From NCBI RefSeq assembly GCF_964204865.1, contig NC_135259.1, positions 15,262,974 to 15,326,973 on the forward strand: 64,000 nucleotides of DNA, read 5' to 3'. Source of the DNA: Styela clava (taxonomy: Eukaryota > Chordata > Ascidiacea > Stolidobranchia > Styelidae). Positions 26,960-51,671 of this stretch are shown here, piece by piece (within the stretch, counting starts at the first letter, position 1; the number at the start of each line of letters is the position of its first letter). A model generated the notes under the pieces. That model made no database searches. It was not told the DNA's origin and saw nothing but the letters and a program-made list of their open reading frames with translations. The translations under genes were made by a program, and so were the position numbers.

Positions 26960-28374
26960 TTATTTGCAATATGCAACAACAAATAAGTTCATCGCATATT
27001 TTATGTCACTCCGAACGAAGAATCGTGTAAAAATTGGAATCCGTGACAATGAATACAACTCAGTCTCTTCATATGCTGGCAAGAAACATTAGGTGTGGTT
27101 TGAATTCCTTTCTGAACTCGCTACTTAAAAATTGTCGTGAATTAATATGCGTAAAACGTGGCGATTAAAAAAAGTTGCCTTCAGGCAAATCACAACGATA
27201 CTATCGTTTATATAACAGAACGTTGCAAAAGTTCTATGGGCAAACTAATGTAAAACAGAGAATAGTCAGTTGAATGCTCCAGCACAGCGTTTCCCAAACT
27301 TTTTCGGCCACGGAACACCTCCACTTTTTATCTCGCCTCGCGAAACACCAAAAAATAAAAGGGTAAAATTGATAAAGAAAAAGTTGTCAAATGCGCGGCG
27401 AAAACTAACAGAATTGTGTTAAAATACTTAAAATGGGATTGAATATTTTACATGTTGCATTTATTATTAATGTTTTATTGTTTCTTAATTTAAATGGTGT
27501 GTATATGAATTAATAAATTCATTTTACCATTCTATGTCGTTTACTCTCCATTACGTAGTGTTTGCCTCTAACAGTATGTTCCCTAGCTTTTCTTTTTAGG
27601 GGGTGTTTCAAAATTTAGGGGGTGGTAAATAATTTGCTTTTAGAGATAAAACTAGGCTATTTGTATTCTTAAAAAAATGGTATGTATTTAAGAAACGATG
27701 TACTTGAGGACCCCCTAAGACGGCGAGCCAAAATCCACAGCAGAATGAAATTGTAGGGCCAGAAAAGGGAAGCGAGGAAAAGTGCGGGACGACACGGTTG
27801 GAGTTCAGGGCGCGCTTAAGCGCCCTGAGAAAATTTTGAGAAATAGTTACCAAAATAGGCTCTAAGCTTGATTTTAGATACACCTAGCATCGCAGTTTGT
27901 TATGTAATGAAATCAGTAATTATAATATCTAGCTGATAGAATTCCCGGGTAATAGATAACAAGCACGGCTTTCAACCGTAAATATATACTACTACGTTTC
28001 AACAAGTAATTTGCAACTGATAGTGACTAATGAAGTTACTTGCTCATCTGGCATTGTATGAATGCCTACTTATGGCTAGTTTTGTTACACATTTCTAATT
28101 TTTTTGAACATGTTTGTTTGACTTTTGTATGAATTAAATTTTGAAATACGCTCGTCAACTGATCATAATGTCGCACAATGTTGTATTCCTTCGGAACTGA
28201 AATATTTTGTTGGTAAGAAGATAAATCGCTGAAGTTTGATTCTTTTCAATAAAGAAATAAAAACGCTGTCATTCATCTAAAAAACGTCTGTTTTCAGTGC
28301 CTAGTTTTCGTTTTGTGACATCTTTAAGCTTTCTTAATATACGGCTGATATCTAAAATACTGCAGTGTGTAATC

Positions 28375-29195
28375 CAGGGGTCTCAAACTCGCGGCCCGCG
28401 GGCCAATTGCGGCCCGCAGGACGATAGTTTGCTGTCCCCGCCTGGGTATGAAAGTTTAATGTTAGTGCGGCCCGTAAGTCACTCAGCTCAGTTAGAATGA
28501 TTGATGCATTTAATATATGATCAGGACAAGTAGAGCAAAACAAAATATTTTATAATCTATCCCCCGAAAGGAATATGCGGTACGGTAATCTACTAGTACC
28601 GTACCTGTGGGCATGATATTCGATGGACCTTTAACCCCGAAGAAAACTTCTTATCTTACCATTGCAAATTCTTGGTGCTTATTTTAGAGGTGGCTTCGCG
28701 AGTTGAACCCTATAAACTGGGTTATAGGTTTCACGTCATCATTTTGATTCAAAACATTCAACTACCTGTTTTTTTCAACAGTAGGGTACCGGTAGAAAAG
28801 TTTAGCCTAGTCTATCACAGCTATTTCTAGACTAATTTTTGATTACGGCAATTAAGCTACGACGCCCAAGCAAACAGAATGGTCATTGAGTTCTTTGATT
28901 TATACTTGAATTTCTGAAACATAACCCAAAACTAACAAATAGCATGCAAAAACGAGGTAATGTTTACAAACAAACATGCCTGAAAATCTTTCTGAGTGAC
29001 AAGTGTCTGAGCGTTTGCGAAAAAGTCTATTGTTACGTCACTTTTTTGCATCTTGCTGATTAGCCCATGTTACGGAATAAACAAGAATGTTCGGGGAAAG
29101 GTCCATCGCGGAATGCTTTTTATTACCGGATGCGGCCCGGACTCACTAAGGCTCCGTCTCGGCGGCCCCCAGGTAAATTGAGTTTGAGACCCCTG
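28375..29195. mobile_element. Non-autonomous hAT-like element nested in 27295-33053
   Basis: The ends CAGGGGTCTCAAACTCGCGG and GAGTTTGAGACCCCTG are inverted repeats, flanked by GTGTAATC at 28367-28374 and 29196-29203, a perfect 8-bp TSD. Subterminal GGCCCGCGGGCC and GCGGCCC motifs are typical of the set. No coding capacity is seen. A right-end-like fragment (GGCCCGCAGACTGCGG, GAACCCCTCAGTG) follows near 29390. Confidence 0.92.
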
Positions 29196-29760
29196 GTGTA
29201 ATCCTAATACCCATACGTATACATAAGATACCGGAATAATTCAATTGTTACGAAATAAACGTGCTTAAACTGTGATAATGATGTAACAATAGACGATATC
29301 TAAAACACAAAAGGTACCACATGAAGGGTTAAACTATTTCACTCAAGTTCGGCGGGTCATTTTAAATCGTTACGCGGGCCGTAATTGGCCCGCAGACTGC
29401 GGTTTAGAACCCCTCAGTGTGGAATCGCACCTCAAAATTAGGGGAGGTGTTTGAAATTTTAGGGGGGGTGTTCACCCAGGCAGAGATGGAGGAAGAAGAG
29501 TTGACCCTTTGCCTTTATTCTTTAGGTCTACTCGTTTGCCTATAGCAAAACCAAAATGATTGCTGTAAACTTGATAATGAACTTAACAGTCAAAAAGCTA
29601 GGCCGACAGTTATCGAAAATGCCACTATCCCTCTTCAGTTAGTACGATTTAAGCCGGTGGTGACGCGATATTGAACGGTCAGTTGGGCGACAACTTCACG
29701 TTCCATGGATCAGGGCTTCCCAAACTTTTGAGCTCGCGATCCCTTTTAATATATATAATT

Positions 29761-32700
29761 CAGTGCCGGCGCGTCAATAGGGCCAACCGGAGCAATGCCC
29801 CGGTTGTTTTTTCGGTATAATAAAAAATATTCGAAAAATACCTCAATATCGGTTGCACAGACTGTCTACACTAGCCATATTTTCCCGACATGGTTCATAT
29901 TTCGCTCGCAAAGCCTTCGCCGAACGTCGACGGGGCGACGCCGATTTTGCCCCGGTTGCTCATTGTATATCGTATTCTCTCTTTTATCTTCCACTCGCCG
30001 CGTTTGTCTCGTTTGTTTTCTGTTTCTTTTACTAAATAATCGGGGCTGGCCCCGAAATTATGACGACACAATGCCGACGTTTCTTACAACAACGTGTTGA
30101 CATATTCACGCTTTTCTTCTCGTTCGTTGGTTGCTTGAAGAGTTGATAGTTTCCTCGCCTTCGTTTTTGTCGCTTGTTTCGCTATTTGAATCAGATAGAG
30201 ACCTTTAGTCCATTTGCTTTCGATTTTCCACATTCCTTTTGAGCTCCTCACTTCTTTCCGGCTTCGCATTTCTTAGCCTTAGACCTCATAATGAATAAGG
30301 TTGATGCACTACTTCGCAGTCCGTTTTCGCAGCTGCCGCTGGAACAAAAATTAAAGGTACAACGTCTTGGGCCTTATCAACCAAAAAATTGTTCACTGGA
30401 ACAATCCCATGACGAAGGAAAGCCTCGGCGTACATTCTGCGCAGCAACTTGGTATAAAAAACACGAATGGTTGTGTTACAGCGAGGACAAAAATGCACTT
30501 TTTCGTTTTTATTGCCTACTTTTTGCTACCGCCCGTGACTCACGTTGGTGTAAATTTGGTTTTAGAGATCTTAAACATCTTTCCGAGCGTGCCAGGGATC
30601 ATCAATCTTCTATGGAGCAACTGGACAATGCAGTAAAATACCGAACATTCGGAAATGTTAATATTGCAGCACAGTTGGATGAAGGACGCGCGGTTTCTAT
30701 TCGTCGGCACAACCAAAACGTCGAGAAAAACCGCCATGTTCTCGGTCGATTGATAGATGTTTTGAAGTTCATTGGTTGTCACGAGCTGTCCCTCCGTGGG
30801 CACGATGAACGGGCTGGCTCTTCTTAAGAGGGGTATTTTTGGATATGGTGGAATACACCGCATCCCTAGATACAGTATTGACTCTATTGAGAGATCATCT
30901 TGATGCCGCAACTGTTTCGAAAGGGACATCTAAGGATATCCAAAATGATTTGCTCGACTCAATGTATAAAATTTATTTACAACATTTGACTCTGGAAATT
31001 GAGAATTGCCAGTTCCTTTCGATTCAGTCTGACGAGACAACTGACATCACGTGCGTTTCCCAACTGGCTGTGATTTTTCGGTTTGTGAAAGATGGTAAAC
31101 CTACCGAGAGATTTCACAGCTTTGTACCAATCGTTGATCGCACGGCTTGCGGGATATCGGCTGTACTGAAAGAAGTGTTTCAGCCTTACAACGCGAAGTC
31201 AAAATTGATAGCTCAAACTTATGACGGCGCGGCAGTCATGAGTGGGTCGAAACATGGTGTTCAAGTTTATATAAAAGAAGATTTTCCTCATGCGCATTTT
31301 TTACATTGTTATGCACACCAATTTAACCTCGTTATTAAAAATATGTGTCTTGATACCCCTCTCGTCCGTATATTTTTTGCAAATGTTTCGGGGTTTTCTT
31401 CATTTTTTTTCCGTTTCGCCGAAGCGCTCTGACCTCCTTCGCCAGATATGTAGCCGCCGTCTCACTGCTTGTGCACCAACACGTTGGAACTTCCAATCAC
31501 GCGTGTTGCAGGGCGTGTCCGAAATTAGGTCCGAGCTCATTGAGTGTTTCAATGGCATTCAGAGCTCTCCGGTTTGGGACGAACGCTCTGTGAGGGAGGC
31601 GGCAGGTCTAAAGCGTCTGCTAGAAAATGGTGAGTTTTCATTTTTTCTCCACAATATTCTATCACGTGGATGTATTATACGGCACATTGCAGGCAAGGCT
31701 AATGGATGGAGCGTCTGTGCAGTCGTGTATTTCAGACTTCTGCGATGCTGTATCTCGTATCCGGGAAACAATAAAATACGACGACACATGGAGTGCTTCT
31801 TTACGCCGCGGGCAAACAACGCAGCGTTTGATTTTGTCTGCAAAGGAATGCTGTGACATTCTGGTGAATCAAATAGGCGATCGTCTGCGCACTGAACACC
31901 TTGCCGCGTTCTCTTTGATAAACCCCAAAAAATTTTCAAAATTTGCACGTCAATTTCCCATCCATTTGTTGGCTACTGTCTCCAAATTTTACCCCATGAT
32001 AAACGTGGGTAAATTGGAAAATGAATTGCGATGTATATACACCAATCAAACTTTTTTGAACATCACATCAACTTGCGCGCTGGGTTCCTTATAGATAACA
32101 CTCTAGTAACTACCTTTGCGGCGTCTGCAAAATTTCTGGACATCATTTTGACAACGCCTATTTCTTCCGCCGACGCAGAGCGAACATTCAGCACGCTGAA
32201 GCGTATTAAAACGTATCTCAGAAACACAATGAAGCAAGATAGATTAAATTCCTTGGCTGTTTTATCCATTCACAGAGACGTTATTTCTGGGATGCATGAC
32301 TTTAATCAGCGCGTTATTGAGCATTTTGCTTCCAAGAAACCGCGGCGTGTTGCATATATGTTCAAGCAGTAGAAGTCTAGCAGCATTTTATATATCTATG
32401 AGTGAGCGACGCATGTCCTTATCTTTGCATTAACTTTCTTTTCTTCATAGTAACGTTTTAAACCTTGTTTTAGGTTTTGTCTGCTTTCCCGAAGTTTCTG
32501 TTAATATGTCATTGTATTTATCTGGGTAAATATTGCCTTTCCTCTTGAAAGAGGTTTCAAAATAAACTATGTCTATATTTATTAATCCCTTGACTTGGAC
32601 CGGTTTTAAAGACACTTTCTTATCGTTAAAAATTGTCGCTTTTGCCGATTGGTTGTTACCGATGGAATGGCTTTTATACTCATAAAATGATGGGAGAACT

Positions 32701-32789
32701 TACAGCGCTCATCCTGTCCCCGTAGATGGGGGTGACTTGGTCCCGCAGTAGCTTGCCCCGGTTGTCAAAATGACCACGCGCCGCCACTG
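29761..32789 (+). mobile_element. hAT transposon with degenerate transposase gene
   Basis: The ends CAGTGCCGGCGCGTCAATAG and ACGCGCCGCCACTG are inverted repeats. Subterminal TGCCCCGGTTG occurs at both ends (about 29794 and 32753) in the same orientation. Flanks ATATAATT and ATATATAT match at six of eight positions in an AT run. It is 3029 bases long and carries the decayed transposase at 30291-32372. It is the innermost layer of the nest and the only one with substantial coding sequence. Confidence 0.85.
30291..32372 (+). pseudogene. hAT-family transposase, frame-broken (ZMYM1-like/DUF4371 type)
   Basis: The coding sequence runs through open segments in changing frames: 30291-30827, 30839-31432, about 31430-31630, about 31660-32094 and about 32090-32372. 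The first segment resembles the N-terminal TTF-type zinc-finger part. The second has the conserved hAT blocks SKGTSKDIQNDLLD and SIQSDETTDIT and the conserved AQTYDGAAVMSG and HCYAHQFNLVIK. The last segment holds the C-terminal dimerisation block (ISSADAERTFSTLKRIKTYL). The frame changes imply small indels, or possibly short introns at one or two junctions, so an active protein is unlikely as read. Family assignment is from motif recognition. Confidence 0.85.
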
Positions 32790-33061
32790 ATATATATATA
32801 TTAAAAAATTTTGCGGCCCTTGTCCTCGTTAATAATGGTAAACAGTTCGAAATATGCGATTTTGATGTTTTGTAAAATTGGTGTTCTCTTTGCGGCCCTT
32901 AAAATTCGTTTAGCGGCCCCTAGTTTGGGAAGCCCTGCCATAGATCTCCATGGCGACTATTTAAGACGTTTTTTTTTATTCCTTTTCCACGGAACACTTC
33001 GAAGATGCTCGCAGAACACTAGTGTTCCGCGGAACACAGTTTGGGAAACGCTGCTCTAGCA

Positions 33062-33887
33062 CAGTGGTTCTCAACCGCCGGTCCACGGCAACCTTGCTGC
33101 CGGTCCGCCAAATATATTCCAATATTAATATATTACAAGCAAATTGCAAAATACAAAGTATTGACGGCATGTCCAATAATTATGTGATTTTTAACTCTTA
33201 TTGAGTTGTAGTACCGGTATTCGTTCAACCGTAAATGAATAACATCAAAACCAAACTTGGTGAAAGGTCCCCTGCCCATTTCAGGCCTGTTTGTTAAATC
33301 TATGACCTCATAACGGCGGCTAGCGTCATAACGGAGAAGTTTGATAGCACGTAGTACAGTACCTGATTGAGAACTTCGCAGTTCGCACGTTTCGTAATTT
33401 GACAGTAGGCATATAATTTACTAGCGAGGTTTGATAGTAAAATGGATGCAAGCAAACAGTATTATACAGTCCTTTCAAAAGAAACTAAGCGATGAAAACC
33501 AAGTTAGTGGTGTTGACAGGACAGAGGAAGAGACTGCTACTTCCACTTTACAAGTTACAACATGCACCGAACCGACCTTGCAACAATTGCCATTGTCACA
33601 GTTCTGGATATCTCTTGAAACGAATATCCCGAGATTAGTGACAGAACCATTAAATTACTGCTGTTTTAAATATATAATATCAAAATAATATAAAAAAAAA
33701 AAACAGCAGCAAATTTTTCATTAAATTGGATTGGCTATATTTGCATCGCTTACTTTTGTTGTAAAAGCATTCTTTTCATTATGTTTTGTGTTCATGATAT
33801 TTTTGGTTAATTTTGAAGGTCCGCCGGTCAGCAAAATTTGTTTTGGAATTTTCACCGGTCCGCGAATTGAAAAAAGTTGAGCCACTG
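33062..33887 (+). mobile_element. hAT-like deletion derivative in tandem with 27295-33053
   Basis: The ends CAGTGGTTCTCAACCGCCGG and AAAAAGTTGAGCCACTG are inverted repeats. Flanks CTCTAGCA (33054-33061) and CTTTAGCA (33888-33895) differ at one position. The left TSD is also the right TSD of the preceding element, so two insertions used the same target. Inside, a frame at 33431-33688 ends with QLPLSQFWISLETNIPRLV, resembling the dimerisation region of ZBED/SCAND3-like hAT transposases, so this is probably an internally deleted autonomous element. Confidence 0.85.
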
Positions 33888-34774
33888 CTTTAGCAGATCT
33901 GTATTTGTATAATTCAAGGATATTGTGGCAACAATGAGAAATGTATTTATTTCAAATAGATTAATTTTCACATTGATCAATAAAAACTCAATTATTTAGT
34001 GAATAAAAACAATATCCCAAAAATATTGGTTGAAAATTTGGCATTGAATTGAAAAAAAAAATGAAAAAAAAATTGCTGTTCGTGGGGATTTTTTGTAGAC
34101 AATTGTATTGCGCATGTCTACGATGAGGTAATTTCATCCCAAAATTCCTAGAAATTAGTATCTTTGCAAGCAGGGCCACGCGCACTCACTCGAATTAGTT
34201 CCCCGTCATCTTACAATTTAAACAAATCCCCTGCCAAGCTGATCGTTTTCAGTGATACGCCGAAATAAAGTATACAATGCAGAGCCAAAGATGTAGTGAT
34301 AAGTGATTTCATGTCTTCAGGGCAACGACTAACATAACATGCTTCAGGGTGAATATAAAATCCAATCCAGTTTTATGTTGTAATAGTAAACCGTCTGTCC
34401 ATCACTTTACCGGATTCGTAAACTACATTATATGAAATTCAAATTTTTCTTCAATTGCATTTCTAGTTCCCAAATCTGAAAGATGAAACTATCAACTCGT
34501 TATACAAAGCATTTTATATCGCAAGTACCTTTACCGTGCAACAAGAATGCCGACAAAATTAAAACGCATTAATCAATAACCTCTGTTGAACACCAGAATA
34601 TATTTATCCATATTTATATATATCCATATATATATATATTATAATTTTTTTATCAACCAACTGCACGCCAATTTTAGACGAATATATATTGATTTGTTTA
34701 TCAAACACATAAAAAGTTTTTTTTAACATATATATTCATCAGATTTGATATGAGCTTTGTTTAACATATATAAA

Positions 34775-37700
34775 ATGAAGTTCGTATATCTACTTCTGAT
34801 ATCAGCATTTATTTCGTTAACCACATGTCAAAAACCAAGGATACTTCAAGGTAATGGTATATATACAGGGTGTCGTAAATTTATGGAAACTGGATCTGTA
34901 ATTGATGCACAAAGATCAGGAAGACCAAACTCTCTGAGGAAAACATTTAGAGGCGAATTAATTCCAAATTCTTCGTTAAAGAGGCGCTGAGTTTGCATTA
35001 CTGGTTTATATATATGCTTCTCGCCAAACAGCACTTTTGCACCTCATTTATTGGGTTAATATCCTGTCATTCTGTGAGTTGAGGAAAAATACAAACAATA
35101 CCTAAAATTTACTACTTATCCATACTATGTTTTCTGAAGAAATGAACGCCCTATGATGAGTACCCGAAAAGCAATTCAAAGTGTATACTTACTTTTGAGA
35201 CACCCTGTATATAAATTATTTTTATTCGCAATCATGACTTTGAAGACATTTTACTTAACATTTCGGTCATTCAAATTGCGATAGAGTTATACTTTGTTCC
35301 AATATTCCAGGATGCCGCAGAAAACCTGACATTCTAAACATCAAAATTAGGAAAAATAATGTTGTCGATCTCACACATGTGATGGATGAGCGAACATTTG
35401 TTTGGCCAACGGATGGAAAGGGTTACGAAATGTTTACACTTTTCAAAGGTATTCAACAGGAGTTGTCAAAATATAATTTTTTGCATTTTTCCATTTTCCT
35501 TAAAAAACTGCGCTTGCATGAGGCGTACATGCAATTCATCCACGAAGCATAAATATTTATTCAAAAGTATACCTTGCAACGAGGGATGCAAAATTCGACC
35601 AGCCAGCAGGCAATGAATCATTGGTTTTGTTCAAATATGGTCTTAACAATTTACCCAGGCAATTCCACAAGCCGAATCATATGGAAACTAAAACACAAAA
35701 CTGTTGCCCTCCTCAAACAACTGAAAAGCAATGAATTCCTGTGCCAGCATAAAATGGCTCCCAGAATGAAAACCGCACGTGGAAGCCACTTCCTCCTGAT
35801 ACCTATAAAGATCCCACCTTATCACGAAGACTAATTCATATCCTTCAATATTTTTATAAAGAGTAAATTATAGGTTATGTGAATTTTTTGTTTGCTCCAG
35901 CTCAAGTACAGTACAGACCCGTTGAGTACAATTATGCTACGGAAGCTAAATCTAATACGTCATTCATGAATTTTATGCTTGATATGTGGATAAAATGATT
36001 AAGGCTTGTATGGTATGTTTGCCAATATTTATACCATAGCAAAAATATGGCAAGTAATCCTAGTAAGTTACATAACTTTTATATTTTGATCTTTTCTGTA
36101 TTACCTTCGACATTTTTCAGGATTCATAACTGCAACAGTCCGATTTTTCCTGCAGAGTTATTCATTCTTCACTCCTGAGCATGCAGGAACACACATGGAT
36201 GCACCTTCCCATTTTTACGAAGATAAAAGCCACGTAAGTGAAGTTAACTTTATGGTTTCTTTTTTTTTGTCACTCACTTTGCTTTTACTTGCTAAGCCAG
36301 AATTAAACGATATTCCCTTTATCTCTTCCATAGCGTTGTGCCTGAAGGCGATGTCGAACCGTACCTTTAGAGTTAGAAATCATAATGAAAACTGGGTCAG
36401 TTGCCGCAGCCATAATTTTTTTTTTTCGACGAAGCTTACTATTTCAATTTGTGGTCAAAATAACCTATGAGCTGGTGGTTTGATCGTTTAAACCCGGGGT
36501 GTTATAAATTTGGAGCAAAATTAAATATCTGAAACACCCCTGTGTGCAACCAATTTGGAAGGACTTAGTCAAATTCAGGGTCGTCCAACCCGTGGCCCGC
36601 GGGTGACATGTGGCCCGCCGAAGGTTTCCGTATGGCCCGCGCGATATTATTCGAACTCTTATGTCTTTCACAAATCTGAGCCACTATTAAAACTTCTAAT
36701 AAAAAAGTTATTTCTCGCTCTTCAAACGCGCGAGAAGCAACACCCAGCTATCAAAAACTCTTCTGAGTCTATTTGCGGGCGTTATTGCTGAAGAGATATT
36801 TGATTTTATTGTTATTGCCTGCCATGTATTTCAATCCGTTTTCCTGCCTTTGTTCTGCGAAGCTAGAGGTGTAGTTTTTATGACACCAATATTTGCCCCT
36901 TCGACCATAAAGGTTGGACAAAGGTCTGGTCAAATTAAAATATTTGGTCCTGACTTTATCCGCGTAAATGTAGTGGTATTAGACAAAAGGGCATATATAT
37001 TGATGGGAATTTGAGAATGACAATACCTATCAGCCGCGGTGTGTACTTTTTGCATAGATGGACATGTTGTGACTTGTATCTTCTTTAACTCGGGTTCCGC
37101 GCAAACCTACTTTATTCGCAGAACACTTTTTAATTTTAGTAAGTTTTACCGCAGGGGTCAGATTTTTCTTTCTTTTGAGTGAACTGTGTCAATTAACCAA
37201 ACTCGGGATTTATATGACCCTAAAGAACGATTTGTGAAAGATAGATTTGTTTGTCGAAATAGATGCTTCGAAAAAATTGTGGTTCGCAGGCAAGTGCGTT
37301 TTGAATTGAATAATATGGAAACAATATTTTGTTTCAACAAGATTTATTTTAAAGAAAAAAAAACTTGATATTCAATTTTTGTATGATCGAATCATTTTTA
37401 CGGGTAAATTCTCTTGGAAACAAACATTGTTCTTTTCAATACTAATTAGCATTTTGTTTGAGTAAAAATTTTACTAACTTCATATCATAAAACAATTTTA
37501 CAGATAGACGAAGTTGGTTTTGAGTCAATGATTGGTCGTGGAGTTTTAATTAATTTGATGAAAAATAACACGAGATACGGGAAGGATGGCAGAATAACAA
37601 TCGATGATATATTAGCCTGGGAAAAAATTCACGGTAAACGCAAAATTGTTACAATAACCTCTTGTTGGAACAATAATTTTATGTGCCTTAGGTCAACGAG

Positions 37701-38713
37701 AAACATGATTAAGCAATTGAGATAAAATTGATTCAGAAAACGTAATAGGATATATACTTGATTTCCATACTCTACAATTTTTTTACTACGTTACTGACTT
37801 TCACGTAAAGTAGAGTGACTTTTATTTTATTATTTCATTTTTATAATATTATTTCATAAAAATCGCGACTCCAAATTCAAACAATTTTACTCCAATTCTT
37901 TTTGTTTAGATTTTGAAAATCGGCTCCAAAATGATCCAAATTTGAAAAATATAACTCCCCAACTAGGAGAGAATTTCTTCCCGGGAGGGAATTAATTCTT
38001 GTATATTCTTTGGTATTTCTAATATTCTGAGGTTTATTTTTGCTAAAATATTAATATATGAAAGCATAATAAACTACTTAAACTGTACAAAAGTGGAGGC
38101 GCGAATTGCACATAACATAATATAGGTTTCCGAAATAGGCGAGGGGATGAATTTTATCAAAAAGCTTGGGACCACAGTTTAAGCCCCACCAATAATAACT
38201 CTTATATTCCATATAATCTTTGTTATCAACAGGGAGAATGAGAAGCGGAAGTATTGTTCTCTTATATACCGGCTACTCAGACTATTACTACGACAGACTA
38301 GTTTACATGGGGACAAACTTAACTGGAGTTGAAGGGGAAGCTAACCTACATTTTCCTGGACTGCACGAGGATACAACTGAATGGCTTGTAAATAACAGAT
38401 GCATTGCGGCTATAGGAATTGACACGCCGAGTATAGATTATGGTCAATCAAAAAATTACCCGTAAGTAATATAATGCTTAAATAAAATGAGCACTTTGAT
38501 TTACACATTCACGAGGAAAACCCAATATCACTCCTTTTCTTTATTTACAGTTCTCATCGAATTTTGTGCAAAAGTGGCATCCCGATCTTCGAAAATGTTG
38601 CCAACCTGAAAAATTTGGCTGATGCTGGCAGAAGCTTCACGGTTATTGCCCTTCCGCTGAAATTAAAAGGGGGGAGCGGATCTCCTGTGCGAATTATAGC
38701 TGCTTTGAACTAA
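34775..38713 (+). CDS. Secreted cyclase-family hydrolase (kynurenine formamidase/isatin hydrolase-like), paralog 1
   Basis: Exons 34775-34850, 35311-35448, 36121-36233, 37504-37633, 38233-38461 and 38551-38713 join in frame to 282 residues. Residues 1-18 (MKFVYLLLISAFISLTTC) are a signal peptide, so secretion or lumenal location is inferred. The cyclase fold (Pfam cyclase, which includes bacterial KynB formamidase and isatin hydrolase) is shown by DLTH (45-48), the metal motif HAGTHMDAPSHF (92-103), the IGRGVLINL strand, GSIVLLYTGY (158-167), HFPGLHE (192-198) and GIDTPSID (214-221). The family hydrolyses amide or lactam bonds using Mn or Zn; the substrate here is unknown. It differs from vertebrate AFMID, which is an alpha/beta hydrolase. 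Start: first ATG after a TATA-like tract, matching the paralog. AATAAA lies at 38800-38805. Intron 3 holds a hAT-like element absent from the paralog. Confidence 0.92.
36576..36928. mobile_element. Non-autonomous hAT-like element in paralog 1 intron 3
   Basis: The left end CAGGGTCGTCCAACCCGTGG and right end GGTTGGACAAAGGTCTG are inverted repeats. GTCAAATT at 36568-36575 and 36929-36936 is a perfect 8-bp TSD. TGGCCCGC motifs are subterminal. It is absent from the corresponding intron of paralog 2, so it arrived after the duplication. Confidence 0.92.
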
Positions 38714-38740
38714 TTGGATCTCTCCTTTTGTTGAAGGACT

Positions 38741-40227
38741 TTATAACAATGTAATTGTCATGTATTCAAGTAATGTTGGCTTACCTATTGCCACAATGAA
38801 ATAAAATTTTATTGTAGCACTAAGACTTTTAGCGCTTTTGTGAAAATAAAATGCTGATTGGATCAATATTTAGCTCATTCTGTGCGGTATGTTTCTAAAA
38901 GTATTTGCTCACCAGGAGCTCATGAATTCAAGTACAGTTGGTCGTTTCGGTTGGATCGGAACTGTATTTTTTCACAAACTATGTATCATCCGAATCATAG
39001 TAATCGTGAAAGTAGCGTGAATCAGTGGCCGATCGAATTGAATTATTAAATTTTTTTTGCATGTCAAACTTTGACATGGGCAAACTATGGCCTGTGGGCC
39101 AAATCCGACCCGTTGGGTACTTCAATCTGGCCCGACTGATGCTAACGCAACCAAACTAAAACCAAATGTTGATGTTTTAGGTGAAAAATAACGCAAGGAA
39201 TATGTTGTCATTAAATTTAGTTTTGGCACGAGGCTTATTTTTGTTCCACTTTTGCTCATGTAACACTGTAAATATTGTTCATAGTATGTGACTTTTTACG
39301 TCAGACTTTTCTGGCCCGCCAGTCTAGGTGGGCCACATTTTGGCCACTTGTCCAAAAACCTTGCCCATCCACCATCACCACTTCCCACCAAATAAATTTT
39401 AGAGCAATCGGAATTTCTACGCGACATAAATGACTGTTCATTCGAGATCTTTTTATTGTTAGGAATCAGGCATTATTTCAAGTCAAGATATATAAGCGCT
39501 TTTAGCTGTCTTTGCATGAAATAACTCTATCTTTTGTAATTCCCTTTTCCTGACTTAACCGGAAACGTAGTACTTTCTAAAGGGAAAATAACAATTCACG
39601 ATAAAATCTGTATCGAATATTTATGAGCGTAAGTCATCGAAACGTTAATATTAAATGTCCATCATTACTTCCATGAGTTAAGATCTTTCCAAATATGGAC
39701 TTTGACATCCTCTTCTGGTAAAAAAAACATATAGTCTTACGTAGACCAGCGTTTTCAGGCCAAGGTGGAATTTTATGTAAACTATTCAAACTGTACACAA
39801 TTCAGAATGTGTAAATTGGGCATATTACTGCTGTTCTCCATTTAAGATTGAAGCAGTTTTCATGCGTATTTTTAATGAGGGAGAAATGAAAAGTGTAAAA
39901 ATATGCAGAGGATGAAATCAAATGAGTGGAAATCACTAACGTTCAGGCTATGTCATAATTTATCATTTCCACGTCACATTATGCCAAATTTGTGAAATTG
40001 GTTCATATCATAGCGATTAAATTCGAAGGATTGCAATTTAATTGAATAGATTTAATTGTAAAAAACAATTTAATTCATTTCGATCGCATGACTGATCGTT
40101 CACGCTATTGCTTACTGTAATTAGGTTAGTATATACATATATATATATGTTATAAGAAAAAAATACAGTTTTGATCCAACCCACACGGCATCAGCGTACT
40201 TGTTGTACTTGAAATAAATTCAATCAA
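38741..40227. other. Spacer of the inverted duplication
   Basis: This is the region between the 3' ends of the two convergent cyclase genes where arm-to-arm similarity fades. It holds the hAT-like relic at 39075-39369, a segment near 39590 similar to 26370, and a short TA run near 40138. I see no gene in it. Confidence 0.55.
39075..39369. mobile_element. Degraded hAT-like element in the spacer
   Basis: The left end CATGGGCAAACTATGGCC and right end AAAAACCTTGCCCATC are imperfect inverted repeats. Internal TGGCCCGAC and CTGGCCCGCCAG motifs fit the GC-rich subterminal pattern. No target duplication is visible and the terminal CAG has changed, so it is old. Confidence 0.55.
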
Positions 40228-40253
40228 ATCCTTCAACAAAAGGAGAGATCCAT

Positions 40254-43200
40254 TTAGTTCAAAGCAGCTATAATTCGCACAGGAGATCCGCTCCCCCCTC
40301 TCAATTTCAGCGGAAGGGCAATCACCTTGAAACCCCTGCCAGCATCAGCCAACTTTTTCAGGTTGGCGACATTTTCGAAGATCGGGATGTCACTCTTGCA
40401 CAAAATTCGATGAGAACTGTAAATCACGAAACGGAGTGATATCGGGTTTTTCTCATGAATGTTTAAATCAAAGTGCTCATTTTATTTGAGCATTATATAA
40501 CTTACGGGTAATTTTTTGATTGACCATAATCCATACTCGGCGTGTCAATTCCTATAGCCGAAATGCATCTGTTATTTACAAGCCATTCAGTTGTATTCTC
40601 GTGCAGTCCAGGAAAATGTAGGTTAGCTTCCCCTTCAGCTCCAGTTAAGTTTGTCCCCATGTAAACTGGTCTGTCGTAGTAATAGTTTGAGTAGCCGGTA
40701 TATAAGAGAACAATACTTCCGCTTCTCATTCTCCCTGTTAGTAACAAAGATTATATAGAAAACATTTGTTAATATTGTTGAGGTTATAGCAATTGTTCCA
40801 AGTTTTTTCTTGAAATTCCACCTTTTGCCCATTTCGAAACCCTTAATTCCCCCCCACTATGCAAAATGTACTTTGTAAATTCAATCTTTAGTGGACTAAC
40901 CATTGTTATGCGCAAATCGCGCCTACACTTTTGTACAGTTTATGTAGTTTATAATGCGTTCTTATATTAATAATATAGCAATAATCAAGAACTTCATAAT
41001 ATTAGAAATACTACAGCAAATACAAGGCTAAATTCCTTCCCGGGAAGGAAATCTTCCCCGATTGGGCTATCGACATACGGTTTGGCGTTTCGAATTTTTG
41101 CCGATATTCGACTCGAACTGGAGCTATATTTTCAAATTTTGAATATCTCGGAGCCGACAGTAAGTAGTAAATTAGTAACGTAGTAATGATATTGTTGAGT
41201 ATTGAATTCACGTATATATCCCGTGACGTTTTCTGAATAAAATTGATGTTTATTAATTTATCACGCCTGAGGCTAATAACAAGATTGTACCAGCACAGGT
41301 TATCGTAACAATTTTTTGTTTACCATGAATTATTTCCCATGCTAATATATCATCGATTGTTACTCTGCCATCCTTTTCATATCTCGTGTTATTTTTCGTC
41401 AAATCAATTAAAACTCCACGACCAATTATTGAATCAAAACCAACTTCGTCTGTCTGTGAAATTGTTTTAAAATATGAAGTTAACAAAAATTTTCACTCAA
41501 ATATATACTAGTTAGTATTAAAAAAAAATGTTTATTTCCATGTGAATTTACCCATAAAAGGAATGATTCGATCATTGAACTGCCTAACGTTAAGTTCAAA
41601 AAATTCAAAAATGGAATATTTCGAAAGTTTTTCTCCTTTAAAATAAACCTTGTTAAAACACAATATTGTTATTTATCGATTTTAATTACTACAATTTCTT
41701 CAAATCGTCTATTTCAAGACCCAAACCTATCTTTCACAAAACGTCCTGTAAGATCCTTCATTGGTACACAATTGTTACAGTTCACTCGAAAACGAGAAAA
41801 TCTTACGAAGTAAGTGTTTTGCGAACACAGTAGGTTTACGCGGAACCCGGGTTTTAAGAGCACTAAATTTCAACATGCTCACTTATGCAAAAACCACACA
41901 AAGCGACTGTAAGGTATTGCCTTTCTTCAAGTTCCCATCAATATGTCCTTTCTGTCTATTATCATTATATTCGCGGAAACATGTGTGGACCAAATGTTTT
42001 CATGTGATCAAGTCTTTCCCAAATTAGTCTCATAAAGGCGTTTTTCAGATATTTTAATTTTTCTCCAAAATTTGTAACACCCCGGGTGTAAACGAACAAA
42101 CTACCAGATTATAGGTTATTTTTCCACAAATTGAAATAATGAGATTTGTCGGCAGAAAAAAATTATGGCTGAGACGACTGACACAGTTTCGTTATGATTT
42201 CTAATTCTAAAGGTACGGTTCCACATCGCCTTCAGGCACAACGCTATGGAGAAGGTAAAAGAAAAATCGTTTAATTCTGGCTTAGCAAGTAAAAGCAAAG
42301 TGAGTGACGAGAACAATGAATATAAAGATAACTTCACTTACGTGGCTTTTATCTTCGTAAAAATGGGAAGGTGCATCCATGTGTGTGCCCGAATGCTCAG
42401 GAGTAAAGAATGAATAACTTTGTAGGAAAAATCGGACGGTTGCAGTAATGAATCCTGAAAAATGTTGAAGATAATACAGAAAAGAATAAATATAAAAATT
42501 ATGTAACTTACAGGGAATACTCGCCATATTTTTGCTATAGCAAAATACCGCATATATCAGTGGTTCTCAAACTTTTTTTGCTCGCGGCGCACTGAGCAAA
42601 TAAAAAAAAGTTTGCGGCACACTTGTAAAAAATAAGGTTAGCCATAAACATATTTATTCTGCAAATGTTGATCCGAGGTGTGTGCCTGTTTTGAAAAACA
42701 ATTAAAACGAGGTTCCATCGATCCCTTTTTGCTTTTAATTTTAATCAGAGCAAAAAATCCGTTTTCCCAGAGCCATGGAGATGCAAATGGCTATATTACT
42801 CCGATGAATTTTGCACAGTCAAAAATCGTACATACTTGCTTTCTTGTTAGCCCAACTAAGCGCGCAAGTCAACGTGGTGAAAGATTGACGTCTTGTTTGA
42901 ATATGCATTATAAAATAATAATACAAATATAGCGTGCCAATTAACCTTACTACAACGACAAGGCAAATGCAATGATGTTATCAGTCTAATATTGGATAAA
43001 ACGCACTCCCGTTGAATGCATGCCTATTGCCTATGTGTAATATGAAAAGCTTATTTTTTTAAAATTCCAAAAAGTTCTGCGGCACACCTTAGAATCTCTC
43101 ACGGCACACAAAAATTTACATTACCTATAATTTACTCTTTAAAAATATTAAAGGATATGAATTACGGTTCGACGTACGGTTATCATTCTAGGAGCCATTT

Positions 43201-43868
43201 TATGCTGACACAGAAATTCATCGCTTTTCAGTTGTCTGGAGAGGGCAACAGTTTTGTGTTTTGGCGTCCATATGATTCGGCTTGTGAAATTGCGTGGGTA
43301 GGCTATGTTGCAAATGATATGCCAGGACTATTTTGAACAAAACCAATGATTTATTGCCTGCTGACTGGTCAAAACGAATTCATCATTGGTTGCAAGGTTT
43401 GCTTTCGAACAATTATTTTTGTATTCTGCTGCTCCGTGAATGAATCGCATGTAAGGTTCATTATCTCATAAGAACAAGTCCCCATCGCGCAGTAAAATGA
43501 AAAAAGTACCAATGCAAAAAAATATATTTTGACTGCTGTATACCTTTGAAAACTGTAAACATTTCGTACCCCCTTGTTGCCGTTGGCCAAACAAATGTTC
43601 GCTCGTCCATCACATGTGTGAGATCGACAACATTATTTTTCGTAATTTTGATGTTTAGAATGTCAGGTTTTCTGCGGCATCCTGGAAAATTGAACAATGT
43701 ATAACGTATCAAAATTTGAATGACTAAATTGTAAAGAACTAAAAAGTGTTCAAAAACATGACTGTATATGAAAATAATTTATATACCGTTACCTTGAAGT
43801 ATCCTTGGTTTTTGACATATGGTTAACGAAATAGATGCTGATATCAGAAGTAGATAAACGAACTTCAT
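40254..43868 (-). CDS. Secreted cyclase-family hydrolase, paralog 2
   Basis: Exons, 5' to 3': 43868-43793, 43681-43544, 42454-42342, 41453-41324, 40734-40506 and 40416-40254. Each has exactly the length of its counterpart in paralog 1, giving 282 residues. By hand count about 27 residues differ (roughly 90% identity), with no stop or frameshift. Signal peptide, DLTH, the metal motif (HSGTHMDAPSHF, 92-103), HFPGLHE and GIDTPSMD are kept. Changes cluster at 60-70 (TATRGYEMFTVFK in place of TDGKGYEMFTLFK) and in exon 4, away from the metal ligands, so both copies probably encode active enzymes. The gene converges on paralog 1 across a 1.5-kb spacer. Introns 1-5 align with those of paralog 1. Intron 2 carries a separate insertion at 42559-43120. 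Substrate unknown. Confidence 0.92.
42559..43120. mobile_element. hAT-like insertion or relic in paralog 2 intron 2
   Basis: It starts CAGTGGTTCTCAAACTTTTT with subterminal GCGGCGCACTGAG. The other end near 43078-43110 has GCGGCACACC and ACGGCACAC but no clean terminal repeat. The matching intron of paralog 1 (about 35890-36050) lacks it. Limits are approximate. Confidence 0.6.
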
Positions 43869-46800
43869 TTTATAAATGTCAATCAAACCTAATATAAAGT
43901 CTGATGTATGTTAGAAAAATATTTTATGTGTTTGATAAAAAAATCAATAATCGTCTAAAATGAGCGTGCAACCGATTGATAAAATAATAAATAAATTTTC
44001 TGGCGTTTAACAGAACCCACCAACTGTACGGTTATTGATTAATGCTGTTGAATTTGGTCAGTTTGTCGTTTTAGATGACGGTATTACTAAGGTACATGGT
44101 GCGGTAAGCTGATAGTTTCATATTTCACGTTTGGGAACCAGAAAAACGATTAACAAAGAATTTAGGTTTCGTATTATATAGTCCAGGGATGGTCAACCCA
44201 TATTAGACCGCGATCGACTAAAATCTTCAAAATAGCTCGCGATCGACAGGTCGGTTATAAGGTGACACACAAAAACGAATGAGTACTGAATATTCAGATA
44301 AGTCAGTCAGTCAGTAGTTTATTTTTCACCTGAATGAAAATGCACTCACAGCGAACATAAACTTGAAAAAGAAGTTGAAAATGACATTTCATGGTGAAAG
44401 GTGACGCAAAAAACCAAAGTTGGTTATCGAGCAGCGACACCTGTGATTAGAGTCTAACTTTGATACAAGTTTAATAGAAACAAGACGAACAATATATATA
44501 TATATATTAATATATGAAATATTAACGTCCAAAATTCAAATTTGTTACAGAATAGAGACTCCGGGCACCGTCAAGTACGGGAGGGGTAACCATGGGCAGC
44601 GAACAGCATAACAACGACCAAAGTGAATATCACCATGGCACAGTGACAGGCTGGGTACAGTCATACTGGAAAAGCCATTCGGGAACGGCGTTCAGGTACC
44701 AGTTTTTAAGGGTGCACGTTCTGGTAGTGTACCTAACAAGACAGTTATTAGGTAATACATTTGGAACTATGAGTAACGTCTGAATTGTTAACAGTTTCTT
44801 AATATGGAACCAGTTTCTACTGCACTTCAATTCGGCACTGTGACATGGTTACCGGGACTGGAGTCATTAGAAAAATTATCAGATTCGGAATAGTACATTC
44901 CAATTCTAGAAAGACGAGAAACAAAGGAATAAACAGGTGAAACATCATTCTAGATTGTGGACTAAGAAGTCCTGAGAGTAACATTTAACCAAGCTTACGT
45001 TACACAATCAGATACTCGTGCAACAAATATAGACACCAGATGTGAAAAATAAAATAATAATTCAATCAATACAGAGGAAAATGAACTAACAATAACTAAC
45101 ATTGTTCAAGAGATATCACAATAATAAAATAAATTACAAAAACAGTATAATTAGACATAATACAGTAGGGTTTATAACATATGGTTGCAATGTACCGAAT
45201 ACCTATTGAAACAATTATCTGGCAATTAGGGGTTGGTTCAGTGACCAGGGATCTCGGTTCAAGTGGGCCTATAATAAAGAAACCAGATTATAAATGACCA
45301 GCCAGTGAATTATTTGATTGAGCTCCAGTGGTAGGCAAAAACTCATCCCTTGTAGAATTAGTGGGATGACTGCACACACGCATATAGGGATTTGTTCGAA
45401 AAGAATTGTTTTAAAACAATTGTTTTAAATCGAGTTTTTTTTGCCTGTTTTGTTCAAAATGGCTGTACTATTTGATTTTTTTTTTGTTAAATAGGTTGAA
45501 GTAAAATGGATGTTAAAACTTGCCAAGCGCTTCTTATATGCAATAAAGCTTTCAAAACGCCACAAATATCGATAGAGGCTCATGCACACCATCTCAAGTT
45601 GTAGTTCAGTGGTTGGCGCAGTAAGACGCAACCGATAGGCTATTACGTGAACGACCCTGCTGCGATGAAACTACCTTGCGAAAATTGAAATGCGATCGAA
45701 TAAATGAGTTTGTATAACCTTGAAAAACTCACTTCAACCCTAAAAAACAAAGTATGCTAAGCATAAATTAACCGAACAGTATTAACCGTAACAATGACTT
45801 CATTTTATGAGAAAAATGTCAATACATGACCTCGTTATCCATATTATGGCTTCATAACAGATTAGTTGTGGCGTCTTTGCATCAGAGGACTTACAATTAA
45901 CATAGGCTAGGTTAGGGTGTCTCATCGTTCATATCAGTAGATTATCGCCAATATAAGCATAATTCTTCATTATCGCAACCCACTCGTTTTGCCGAAGGGC
46001 TGCACTTGATCGAGTTGCTTTTGTAGTAGACCCGTGAGCTAATTATGATTTTTCTTACTCAAAACGTCTCTCTGATATCTCGGCTAAACATTCCGGGTAA
46101 AATCTTATGACTTTGGTGGAGATATAAAGTGGAGATAAATGTACGCAATCATAGTGGTAAAAGTCTAAATAAAAAATTTTACTTACATTTTTGAAATTAT
46201 AATTCTGGCTGCGTGTGCAGCTGCCAGAATGCAACGTTTTGGCGTAGTTTCGCGGCGATGCAAGGGGTATTTCAAAGAAAAATACAAAAAATACAGAAAA
46301 ATTTGATTTAAAACAAGCCCTTGTTATAAATAAAATAATATTTTCGAACCGTAAATGTTATATGACTATTCTATCTCCAGCTACAGCATCCTTGCAGTAT
46401 ATGATACGGATCCACTAGCTAACATAAAGACATGAAGGAAAGATCGGGAGTCAGTCTCGCGCAACCCAATTCAAAGTTATGTTATATGCCTGCTCGAACT
46501 TCAGTATCTATTTCACAATTTCCTCCAAGTCCGATTCTTTGTTCGCTTGGAATTAGAAAACATTGGACAATCTGATGCCAATGCTACCGCTGCGAATAAA
46601 TTTATCACACTACAGTTGGAGCGAGACAATTACTTCCGCTTACCGCCTTGATCGACGAACTTGTACGCAGAAGTTATTAAAGAGTCGTTCGTCGGTCAAG
46701 GCCATTGAACTGGAAATACATGGAACGATTTTCTCTCTCGTTTTGCGTTGTCTCAGCGCGGGACAATTTGATCGTCGCCATTTTGGCATTTATGCTTCCT

Positions 46801-46895
46801 AAGTTTCTTCGTGCTGCATCTGTTTTGGCCTGTTTCCATCTATTTTAGTACCCAGTGATATGGATGTATATAAGACACTGACTGGATATTCAAAT

Positions 46896-47397
46896 TAGGG
46901 GTAAGGTTGGGCCCAAAAATTCCAGTCCGACCCGGGCACGTGGGTATTAAACCCGAGCCCGACTAATTATCTTGATTCACCGGATTGCCGATTTCTTTAC
47001 CGGCACTTAAAGAAAAACAGATTGTTGTATGCAACGAATTATAATGATGGTTTGAAATAAATACCCCATTTTACGCAAAACCACTCTTAAAATAAGCCCC
47101 GAAAGTTTTGCAATGGTAAAGTATAGGAAGAATATTTTCGGAGGTCAAAGGTCGGGGAAACGTCCATTACAGCTTCTTCTCTGTTTTATTCAAATTATTT
47201 TACAAAAAGTATTCCTTACTTTAGTATTTACACATAGTTTCAGTATATATATATTTTTTATAAACATAGATTTGTTTAAAAAAAAAAATCAGCGATAGAG
47301 AAGCCCGACCCGAACGTAATGATTGACATTTCAGGCCTGACCCGACCCGAATTTCGGGTCGGGTTCGGGCTTCAGATCTTAGCTCTAATTCAAATAC
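46896..47397. mobile_element. Non-autonomous element with TAG ends and 8-bp TSD
   Basis: The left end TAGGGGTAAGGTTGGGCCC and right end GGGCTTCAGATCTTAGCTCTA are imperfect inverted repeats (TAGxGxTAAG). ATTCAAAT at 46888-46895 and 47398-47405 is a perfect TSD. Repeated CCCGACCCG and its complement make the ends strongly self-complementary. It differs from the CAG-ended elements but has the hAT target length. Confidence 0.8.
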
Positions 47398-47556
47398 AAT
47401 TATATTCAACTCGAGTTAGAAATTTAGAGCCTGATGTGGATTACACAATAGGTATAAAAGGAAACAATTGTTTTTGCCTGATATCTTAAAAAAACAATAA
47501 CCTTCACGGGGAAGATTTCACCCAAGTCTTCGGCTGGGGGCGAAGCGCACTTTAGT

Positions 47557-47758
47557 TGATACTCCCGTAGTGTGTGTATCATAATTTTGGTTTGGCAATA
47601 ATTTTATTCCTTAATTTAGTTCTACTACGAGTTCGGGGACTGTTTGTGTTATCCAAATGAATCCTTCCCATAGGTTTCATTCCCTTCACACAACTTGATG
47701 TAAAGTAGGCGAATAAAATAAGTTACCTCCATACTGGAACACACATTTCTGGAGCTCC
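47557..47758 (+). mobile_element. MITE, GTACTCCC family, inside the 4.27-kb element
   Basis: It is colinear with 15816-16029: TACTCCCGTAGTGTGTG at the left, CTACGAGTTCGGGGACTG and CACAACTTGATGTAAAGTAG in the middle, CATTTCTGGAGCTCC at the right. The GTTAGGG block is altered. Confidence 0.8.
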
Positions 47759-48839
47759 TCCTAGTTCTATTTATATGTATAGCTCGGGTACTACGGAGCC
47801 AGGACACGCAATGATATTGAGATAGCCACGCAAAATACAGGTAAATGAGGGAGCGATTCCGATAAGCCATATTCGTTAATGTTCTGTGGTCGTTGTTGTA
47901 CGTTTTTAACTGATAAGTTGGCAATATTATTAATCCACGACTTAAGGCAAATTGATAAAACAGCCAAAATTAGCACGGTATGGTGGGCTGGGATATATTA
48001 GCGTTTGATACATAATGTGAAACCAATCAAGATCAGGAGAATATGCAAGAAAAATCGACGCAAATAATTGATTTCTGTCAAATCCCATAAGAAATGCATT
48101 ACGCGCCTCGTAGAAGTCGGAAGTCCACATCACTAAAGCGAGAGAGGCTTCAAATTGTCCCGCGGAAATGAGAGAGATTCGCATTATATTATTTATATAT
48201 ATCTGTGGTCAAGGCACCCTTTGCATTTGTTACGCAATAATATATTCTATCCCACCGGTTTGCCCAGACTCAAATACTGTATGTGTGTATCGTATTTTGC
48301 GCTTGTACAGCACTATCTTCTTCCTGTATCAATATTCTTTACAAGCGCTGCATGAAACTGATTCAAGGCAACTTTTTGGTGTATATATTATATTAAATTC
48401 ACTCAATATCGGCGATCGACCGGTCGATCGAGATCGTCGTGTTGGCCATCCCTGATATAGTCCATGAACCCGACAAAATGATTGACATACGGCTTGTTAT
48501 TACAGCATAGAAATGGATTGGAAGTCATATTTACCCTGAGGGCATGAAATCAATTATCACTACATCTTTAGCTTTGCATTGTTGAGTTTATTACGGCGTA
48601 TAACTATTAGCTGAAAAAACACCTTAAAACGACTAGTACTCTAGACCCCAGGTGATCCATTTAATTTAATATGAAAATACCAAACGTTTTTTGTGATACT
48701 CTCGATCGAGATTTGCGAGTGGGCTTTCTTATACAACTTGTTAGGCAATATATACTTGGAACCCAGATTGAAAGTTCACGTATATCCCACCTATTGATAT
48801 CGTAATTATTTGATCCCAGTTGCTCCATATACTCTAATG

Positions 48840-49583
48840 CAGCGTTTCCCAAACTTTTTTGCCACGGAACACTTACACTTTTATCTCGCCTCGCGGAACA
48901 CCAAAAAATGAAAGGGTAAAATTGATAATGAAAAACGGTGTAATGTAGCGGTTCCCAATGGGTTCGCCGTGGCGAGTTGACAAATGCGTAAACAGAATTG
49001 TGTTAAACATACCTAAAATATGATTGAATATTTTACATATATATTGAATTTATTATAAATGTTTTATTTTTCTTAATTTATGGTGGTAATGGTGTGTATA
49101 TAAATTAATAATTTCATTTTACCTTTCTATGTCGTTTACTTCCCATTACGCAGTGTTTGCCTCTAATGTTACGTCTAAAGGAGATAGAATTACTTGCTGC
49201 GATTTCGCGAGCTGCAGAGCTGCAGTTTATTTATCTGCTGAATCGAGTTTAGCAAACATGAGTAATTTTTTTCAGCATTTCAAAGTAAAACCAGGCAGAG
49301 ATGAAAGAAGAAGAATTTACCTTTTGCCTTTATTTTTAGACCTACTTGTTTGTCTATAGCAAAACCAAAAGGATATTGCTGTAAACTTGATAATGAACTT
49401 AACAGTCAAAAAGCTAGGTCGACGATTAACGAAAATGCTACTACCCTACCTTTGTTAGTCCGCTTTAGGACGACGGTGACACGATATTAAACGGTCAGTT
49501 GGGCGACAACTTCACGATTCTTAGATCGCCATGGCGACTAATTTATTATTATTGTTGCGCGGAACACAGTTTGGGAAACGCTA
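48840..49583. mobile_element. hAT-like element, 744-bp relative of 27295-33053
   Basis: The ends CAGCGTTTCCCAAACTTTTT and CACAGTTTGGGAAACGCTA are inverted repeats. Flanks CTCTAATG and CACTACTG match at six of eight positions. Its interior matches the outer layer of the 27295 nest and so shows what that element looked like before the internal insertions. It lies at a different place in the right arm, so the two copies inserted independently. Confidence 0.8.
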
Positions 49584-50313
49584 CACTACTGGGTCCCGCG
49601 AAAGAAATATTAGTGATTTGACAACTAAATTACGACGATATTGCTTAATTAACCCAATATCTTATAAATTATGAACCGAACACCAACTTATTTTATCGAT
49701 TTTCTTTTCTTCTTATTTTTTTTTTAATCCGATACGAATCTTTCAACGAAACAATTTTTCGATATTGGTTTCATCATACCAAAAAAATTGGTTATTAATG
49801 ATCAATAATCGAACATCCTTGCATTATACACAACAGGCCATGCAGTTAGTCTCGCGTAACCCTAACTTTATAGTTAATCTGAAAGTGGGCTTCAATTTGG
49901 AACCGATCCAAAAATCTGACCGATTGACTAACTTGCTGCTAGAACATTCAAATTTCTATGCTCCGTTTTACAGTAGTCTACTCATAGCACTCTTGCAACC
50001 TTCCAATATATGAACGATAGTGTGAAACTGCAATATCGTTGTGGTCTGCCTGGGGGCAACTTTTTTTTCAACAAACACGTTTCATTCATATAAATTGATG
50101 ACAATATCCAAGTAGTGAGTTCAGAAGAGAATTCAAATCACACCTAATGTTTCTCGCCAGCATATCAAGAGACCGAGTTGTATTCTTTGTCATGGATTCC
50201 GTTATTTTTTTCATTAATAGTAAATCATTTTTAAAGTGATAATTTCTTACAAAAAAAAAAATTCAATTAGATACATTTTCATCGCTCTAGTTTCAATATC
50301 TTATTATCTAAAT

Positions 50314-51288
50314 CAGGGGTGTCAAACTTGCGGCCCGCGGGCCGCATGCGGCCCCAGAGCACTTCCAATGCGGCCCTCAAAATTTTTTAAAATTTTGTAA
50401 GTTATTTTTTATCTAAATGTAATACATTTTTCAAACCTTTAAAAGTGAAATTGATTATTCACATAGAAAACGACAATTTACTGAAAGAAGTTTTGGAAAA
50501 ATAAAACTTTTTTGTTTGCAATTTGACCCAATTATGGATACACCCCAAGCTAGCAAAAGAATACTTGAAAAAATAATCCCAGGATTAAATAGAACGCAAA
50601 GTACATAAAAAAGGAGGCATTTTTGAAGAAAAATGGGAGTTGCAATATTTCTACATTTCTCAAAATTCTAAAGCACATTCTTAAATTTGTCACATTTCCA
50701 TCAGTACAATGAAAGAAGAAAGAATACAATATAAGTAGACATTATTAGCATAAGCTCAGCAGTCAATATGGCTATTTCAATGATCAACTTTGATCAAATT
50801 TTTTTATGTGCTTGTATATTATCATAATTATAAGACTACCTAGTTACTAAAAATCAATATCAATCATAACTCAAACGGTCCTATGCCACGTAATGGTAGG
50901 AAATGTGGCGAGAAATGTCTGGTCCGAAAAGTCAGTCATTTGTTTGTTTACTGATCTATACGTGAAATGATAAACGTAACATTTTTGCATAACTGAAATT
51001 AATCAAACATTCTCAACGATCCAGTTAACCGATGAACATGTGACCTCGTTAATTAGAGTTGGTATTTTAAAATCATTTCAGCCTGATATTAGTAAGCTGG
51101 TGGCACAAAAGAAATGCCAAGCGCCAGGACATATGTAATAAAAAAAACATTGATTTTAGTAGTATTCTAGGTCTATATATTTTGATTAAGTCATTTTTAG
51201 TGTATGTATTATTCTTTCCTTATCAAAACTTTGCAAAATTCCCTAAATGCAATGCGGTCCTCGAAAACCAACGAGTTTGACACCCCTG
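50314..51288. mobile_element. Non-autonomous hAT-like element, 975 bp
   Basis: The ends CAGGGGTGTCAAACTTGCGG and CGAGTTTGACACCCCTG are inverted repeats, with GGCCCGCGGGCCGC subterminal. Flanks ATCTAAAT and ATTTAGAT match at six of eight positions and are also exact reverse complements, so the inverted repeat appears to run past the CAG ends. About 170 further bases on its outer side also have no match in the left arm. Confidence 0.8.
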
Positions 51289-51671
51289 ATTTAGATAACG
51301 AAATATAATTCATTTTGCTATCTCATACTGGCAGATTTACACTCCGATATAAATCTAAGCGATTATTCATACCAATACGTGATTCTTCGTTCTAAGTGGC
51401 GTATCCTCAAAGATAAAAAATGCGATAAACTTATTTGTCGTTGCATATAGCAAACATGGAAGCTATATATATGAACACCTAGCACAAAACGAAATATATT
51501 ATCATAAATTTACCGAAAATCATAGGCCCATATTTGCCATGAACAATTCTTAGCGAAGCGAGATTGACGATATGCTTTCGCGCAATCTCCACAAGGCATA
51601 AGGTGCCGCTAATTTTTATTCTGAAGATGACGTCACAACACACGGATCCCATACAATTCACCGGAATATTT

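Follow-up and report, generated by a model that had tools for sequence, protein, structure and literature searches.

The 64,000-nucleotide stretch of the Styela clava genome analysed here (the window; contig C13, positions 15262974-15326973) very probably carries an old inverted tandem duplication of a single Cyclase-family hydrolase gene, which was later hit by transposons and of which both copies were kept. Self-alignment of the window revealed ten inverted blocks arranged in mirrored order around a centre at about 39.5 kb and covering exons, introns and flanks. This agrees with the initial annotation, which had described an inverted duplication with reverse-complement block order outward from about 39.5 kb and homology of the arms in exons, introns and flanking DNA. 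Similarity is not restricted to the coding exons, since introns and flanks match as well. The arms, the spacer between them and the inverted blocks, numbered from the innermost to the outermost, are as follows.

26924..39070, plus strand: left arm, 4,259 of 12,147 bases within blocks that align with the right arm
39071..40047: central spacer, about 1 kb
40048..51494, minus strand: right arm, 4,219 of 11,447 bases in alignable blocks
38929-39070/40048-40202: inverted block 1 (innermost)
36920-38772/40197-42017: inverted block 2
36026-36574/42002-42547: inverted block 3
35832-35895/43104-43164: inverted block 4
35207-35784/43168-43786: inverted block 5
34422-34863/43780-44182: inverted block 6
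34251-34428/48455-48605: inverted block 7
33972-34070/49705-49806: inverted block 8
27029-27284/49937-50207: inverted block 9
26924-27029/51376-51494: inverted block 10 (outermost)
26924..27284, no strand assigned: left-arm outer block, with partners at 49937-50207 and (weakly) 51376-51494

The innermost and outermost blocks are weak, at about 67% identity (E-values of 8e-8 and 4e-9), and the self-comparison listed no inverted homology between the two halves of the spacer. Continuation of the arms past 26.9 and 51.5 kb was rejected. The sole mirrored match listed beyond 26.92 and 51.49 kb in the self-comparison is a 45-base inverted match (25451-25495/61427-61471), taken as a putative repeat because its left partner has another match, in direct orientation, at 61557-61681. 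A further repeat at 51660-52000 adjoins the right arm on the outside (4249 first-look genome candidates, 40 of them scored); as it is found genome-wide, a causal role for it was dropped.

By the script's bounds, 6,465 bases of the left arm and 5,991 bases of the right consist of insertions private to that arm, mostly hAT-like transposons.

27285..33053, no strand assigned: hAT-like insertion private to the left arm, terminal inverted repeat 16/16 and target duplication 7/8, host to a nested element
29711..32937, plus strand: nested hAT element, 16/16 terminal repeat and 7/8 target duplication, transposase frame in overlapping pieces
34866..35207, no strand assigned: short element private to the left arm, inserted in intron 1, ending CAGGGTGTC and flanked by TATATA, right-arm site empty
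36576..36928, no strand assigned: hAT-like insertion private to the left arm, in intron 3, flanked by GTCAAATT (8/8), terminal repeat weak (10/16)
44184..48454, no strand assigned: private right insertion, hAT-like, 8/8 target duplication ATATAGTC and 13/14 terminal repeat, left arm empty
48840..49583, no strand assigned: private right insertion, short element, 6/8 target duplication, terminal repeat nearly that of 27285-33053 (15/16)
50314..51288, no strand assigned: private right insertion, terminal repeat CAGGGGTGTCAAAC and 6/8 target duplication

The short terminal inverted repeats and 8-bp target duplications characteristic of hAT elements were found, in weaker form (6/8) for 48840-49583 and 50314-51288; the intron 1 element, with its TATA-type flanks, is not of the hAT kind. 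Five plus-strand frame pieces were listed for the nested element, and the three scanned against Pfam yielded DUF4371, the hAT dimerisation domain and no match; the dimerisation domain (PF05699) was found solely in this element. In both arms, the private transposons reported earlier correspond to transposon-like insertions marked by terminal repeats and target duplications, and they indicate that the arms evolved separately. Of the DNA that lies outside the aligned blocks, insertions make up about 82% in either arm. Once they are subtracted, the arms measure about 5.7 kb (left) and 5.5 kb (right), of which about 4.2 kb each aligns. The 24 kb originally given as the size of the duplication is therefore an overstatement: the unit is about 5.5 kb, and the span consists of two such units, about 12.5 kb of later insertions and the spacer of about 1 kb. 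A deficit of about 170 bases on one side had also been noted near 50.2-51.3 kb. Near 50.2-51.4 kb, 1,168 bases of the right arm have no counterpart on the left; about 975 of them form a transposon-like insertion, and the roughly 193 that remain come close to the figure noted.

Each arm encodes one Cyclase-family gene.

34775..38713, plus strand: left Cyclase-family gene, exons 34775-34850, 35311-35448, 36121-36233, 37504-37633, 38233-38461 and 38551-38713, 282 amino acids, PF04199 E-value 1.3e-37
40254..43868, minus strand: right Cyclase-family gene, exons 43868-43793, 43681-43544, 42454-42342, 41453-41324, 40734-40506 and 40416-40254, 282 amino acids, PF04199 E-value 3.1e-37

Both gene models are open and consist of six exons with GT-AG introns at matching places. 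The genes are convergent, lying tail to tail with their stop codons about 1.5 kb apart. With PF04199 scores of 129.6 (left) and 128.4 bits (right) against a Pfam cut-off of 23.1, the proposal of one intact cyclase-family gene per arm was confirmed, and the estimate of about 27 differences in 282 residues proved exact. The metal motif of the Cyclase family, given as HxG[T/A]HxDxPxH in the cited part of PMC6117287, is present at residues 92-102 of both proteins (HAGTHMDAPSH left, HSGTHMDAPSH right), a feature shared with the bacterial isatin hydrolase and kynurenine formamidase treated there. Among solved structures, the left protein matches 8f9x (cyclase family protein) and 5nmp (isatin hydrolase) best. 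Unlike isatin hydrolase, both arm proteins lack the GLQC/GLAS signature, the aligned stretch being IFEN; Glu243 occupies the aligned position, similar to the glutamate found at the signature position of kynurenine formamidase B (KynB) according to the same part of that source (PMC6117287). The arm proteins further differ from the bacterial enzymes as described there in beginning with a hydrophobic, signal-like stretch, which suggests putative secretion. Both are probably secreted hydrolases that bind a divalent metal and act on an amide or ester.

A search of the genome (376,610,584 bases in 379 contigs) with the Cyclase profile returned nine matches which, together with exon-level alignment, represent six genes: the two arm genes, a single gene each on contigs C14 and C1, and two genes on C16. 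These six are a minimum, so the family has at least four members besides the arm genes. Identity is 0.90 between the two arm genes and at most 0.60 between them and the four other members, which were compared as exon pieces from the protein search and not as full gene models; in a six-row tree the arm genes are sisters with a support of 0.971. Orienting the amino-acid changes by the C1 member left 15 of 24 ambiguous and placed 3 on the left and 6 on the right copy. The C16 genes form a head-to-head pair, 0.63 identical to each other, with about 16 kb between the first matched exon of one and that of the other. Five inverted matches were found between their DNA, all at exons, and two further ones share a single target and are repeat-like. 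Confinement of the inverted matches to exons implies that the C16 inverted pair is much older than the arm pair, and this second, older pair suggests that the family duplicated this way more than once. Both C16 copies (L009 2696-6101 and L011 2344-4571) are without the first histidine of the metal motif, reading LTGTH, and the plus-strand copy is also without the last motif histidine; judging from these residues, the two C16 proteins may not be normal metal enzymes.

Coding divergence between the arms amounts to dN 0.045 and dS 0.12 (NG86) or dN 0.048 and dS 0.10 (YN00), corresponding to a dN/dS of 0.38-0.49 as calculated with an experimental Biopython module. From the intact frames and dN below dS, both gene copies appear to be maintained. 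Noncoding DNA differs at 399 of 2104 aligned sites (about 19%; K80 0.22), a value that covers the alignable DNA of the six inner blocks (34644-38744), so that true divergence is higher; four-fold sites, at 8/104, fall below it (Fisher P 0.0026). Given this degree of noncoding difference, the structure is a relic and not the kind of near-identical palindrome that is prone to rearrangement, and it does not show the near identity through ongoing conversion of mammalian-Y-type palindromes. The initial annotation had remarked that large palindromes are prone to rearrangement and gene conversion; at conversion, the patchy divergence described below gives a hint.

The same numbers bear on whether the mirror could be an assembly artefact, that is, a second haplotype or the same DNA joined in reverse. 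Misassembly can produce mirror structures, but the noncoding difference, the 27 residue changes and the insertions private to each side, with their target duplications, far exceed what alleles ordinarily differ by or what a copied contig would show. A mirror assembly was rejected on these grounds, as the initial annotation had already argued, and we regard it as highly improbable. A different explanation would be that the arms share only the gene and that similarity of the flanks reflects dispersed repeats received by both sides. Some matches do have this character. Seven same-direction matches between the arms were listed with both settings of the self-comparison taken together, and three of them (27285-27571/48840-49166, 29476-29711/49291-49527 and 33020-33058/49550-49588) fall within two related hAT-like elements, one per arm, because 48840-49583 and 27285-33053 have nearly the same ends; the remaining four span 26 to 76 bases. 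For 29476-29711 there were 644 first-look genome candidates, and all 40 that were scored match, itself included. Two inverted matches are out of mirrored order, namely 28626-28773/47013-47153, whose sequence recurs on contig C16, and 33021-33059/48834-48873, a 40-column match located where hAT-like elements end. However, the two flank stretches that were searched genome-wide were found on the two arms only, in mirrored order, and the introns align as well. Specifically, 26924-27284 gave two matches, itself and, for the part 27036-27284, the other arm (the stretch before 27036 matched itself only), while 33950-34900 gave four, one being itself and the remaining three lying in the other arm. As the search skips very common words, this argues against ordinary dispersed repeats and is not a statement of strict uniqueness. 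A mirror composed of dispersed repeats was consequently rejected, and there is very little chance that the flanks owe their similarity to such elements.

Divergence between the arms is unevenly distributed: whichever of three bin sizes was used, noncoding DNA proved patchier than in any of 5000 permutations (P 2e-4). The longest noncoding stretch without a difference, 43 bases, is only marginally long (P 0.039). The most similar stretch is a candidate conversion tract next to the centre.

38228..38744, plus strand: most similar stretch, comprising exon 5, intron 5, exon 6 and the start of the 3' flank, 517 gap-free columns pairing with 40223-40739

Here, intron 5 and the 3' flank differ at 12/120 sites compared with 387/1984 elsewhere (P 0.008). 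The region 35720-36440 is also low, with 47/417 compared with 242/1067 in 36441-38232 (P 2.8e-7); both stretches were picked after the profile was known, which makes their P values optimistic. The patchy divergence together with the unusually similar 3' end suggests past gene conversion; patchiness could also result from functional constraint or uneven alignment. That functional constraint alone, with no gene conversion at all, explains the pattern including the similar 3' end is a serious contender, with a likelihood that we place only slightly below even. Conservation of the exons and the shortness of intron 5 favour constraint. Between the arms, exon 5 carries six coding changes and no synonymous one, so that constraint may account for the pattern and any conversion there must be old. 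Per-exon values were obtained with exon bounds rounded to codons. Constraint alone is harder to reconcile with the four-fold sites of exon 5, none of which differ between the arms (0/28), yet which differ at 10/18 from the C1 member and at 13/20 from the C14 member (a comparison using nine exon matches of these two members, without C14's match to exon 3 and without the C16 genes) and are thus not frozen in the family. The lower noncoding divergence of intron 5 and the 3' flank, in a stretch chosen post hoc, likewise speaks against it. A more doubtful reading, to which we give some credence, is that, between arms with a noncoding drift of about 20%, conversion homogenised the centre-adjacent 3' half of the gene until fairly lately while the outer parts escaped, which would place the duplicates midway out of concerted evolution.

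Very probably, a unit of about 5.5 kb containing one Cyclase-family gene was copied in inverted orientation, tail to tail, beside itself, between a PHD-finger and a BBS5-like gene. This would have been a one-off event, for example through polymerase template switching or strand exchange; as the breakpoints have decayed, the mechanism of birth can only be inferred. The arms would then have diverged independently and gained hAT-like elements, with both open frames presumably retained under purifying selection, and rare conversion between the arms may have partly homogenised the 3' end and the stretch around exon 3. The locus is a well-preserved but ordinary gene duplication that leaves current understanding unchanged. 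Its arm-private insertions, which mark independent histories, make it a clear example of an ageing inverted gene duplication, and its patchy divergence provides a way to examine for how long inverted copies go on converting each other as they diverge.

Similar arrangements have been published. The LWS opsins of the guppy include linked, inverted, tail-to-tail paralogues with a 3.3-kb AT-rich spacer, ascribed in that work to inverted tandem duplication, with polymerase strand switching discussed for the pair (PMC2527612). The arrangement is the same as that of the two genes described here, but gene and animal are different, and the Styela arms are inflated by transposon-like insertions. Dlx genes of Capitella teleta likewise form a closely linked, inverted, tail-to-tail pair with patchy high identity, which was read by the authors as gene conversion; GENECONV was applied there to an alignment with other annelids and gave mostly very short tracts (PMC3199776). 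Unlike the present pair, these are homeobox genes. In Folsomia candida, the passages cited describe inverted duplicated blocks within a scaffold (11/15 linked blocks), Dscam2 copies with a Ks of 0.2 and a correlation of collinear regions with transposons (PMC5490193). Inverted blocks and transposon association are shared with the Styela locus, whereas the Folsomia blocks are multi-gene, in contrast to the one-gene unit seen here, and occur in a parthenogenetic springtail.

Several other features were observed in the window. No Rfam family was found at gathering score, and ARAGORN, run with the bacterial code, detected no tRNA; a search with the COX1 profile gave no match. To the right of the duplication, a minus-strand frame at 58054-58404 belongs to a BBS5-like gene (Pfam BBL5, E-value 1.7e-25). 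Minus-strand frames at 11.8-20.8 kb with Pfam PHD and zf-HC5HC2H matches belong to a PHD-finger gene that may be PHF14-like. These Pfam matches and the presence of introns are in keeping with an animal genome. A separate, smaller inverted repeat is formed by 19347-19971 and 21390-22088, with an identity of about 78% over some 600 bases that align as two pieces.
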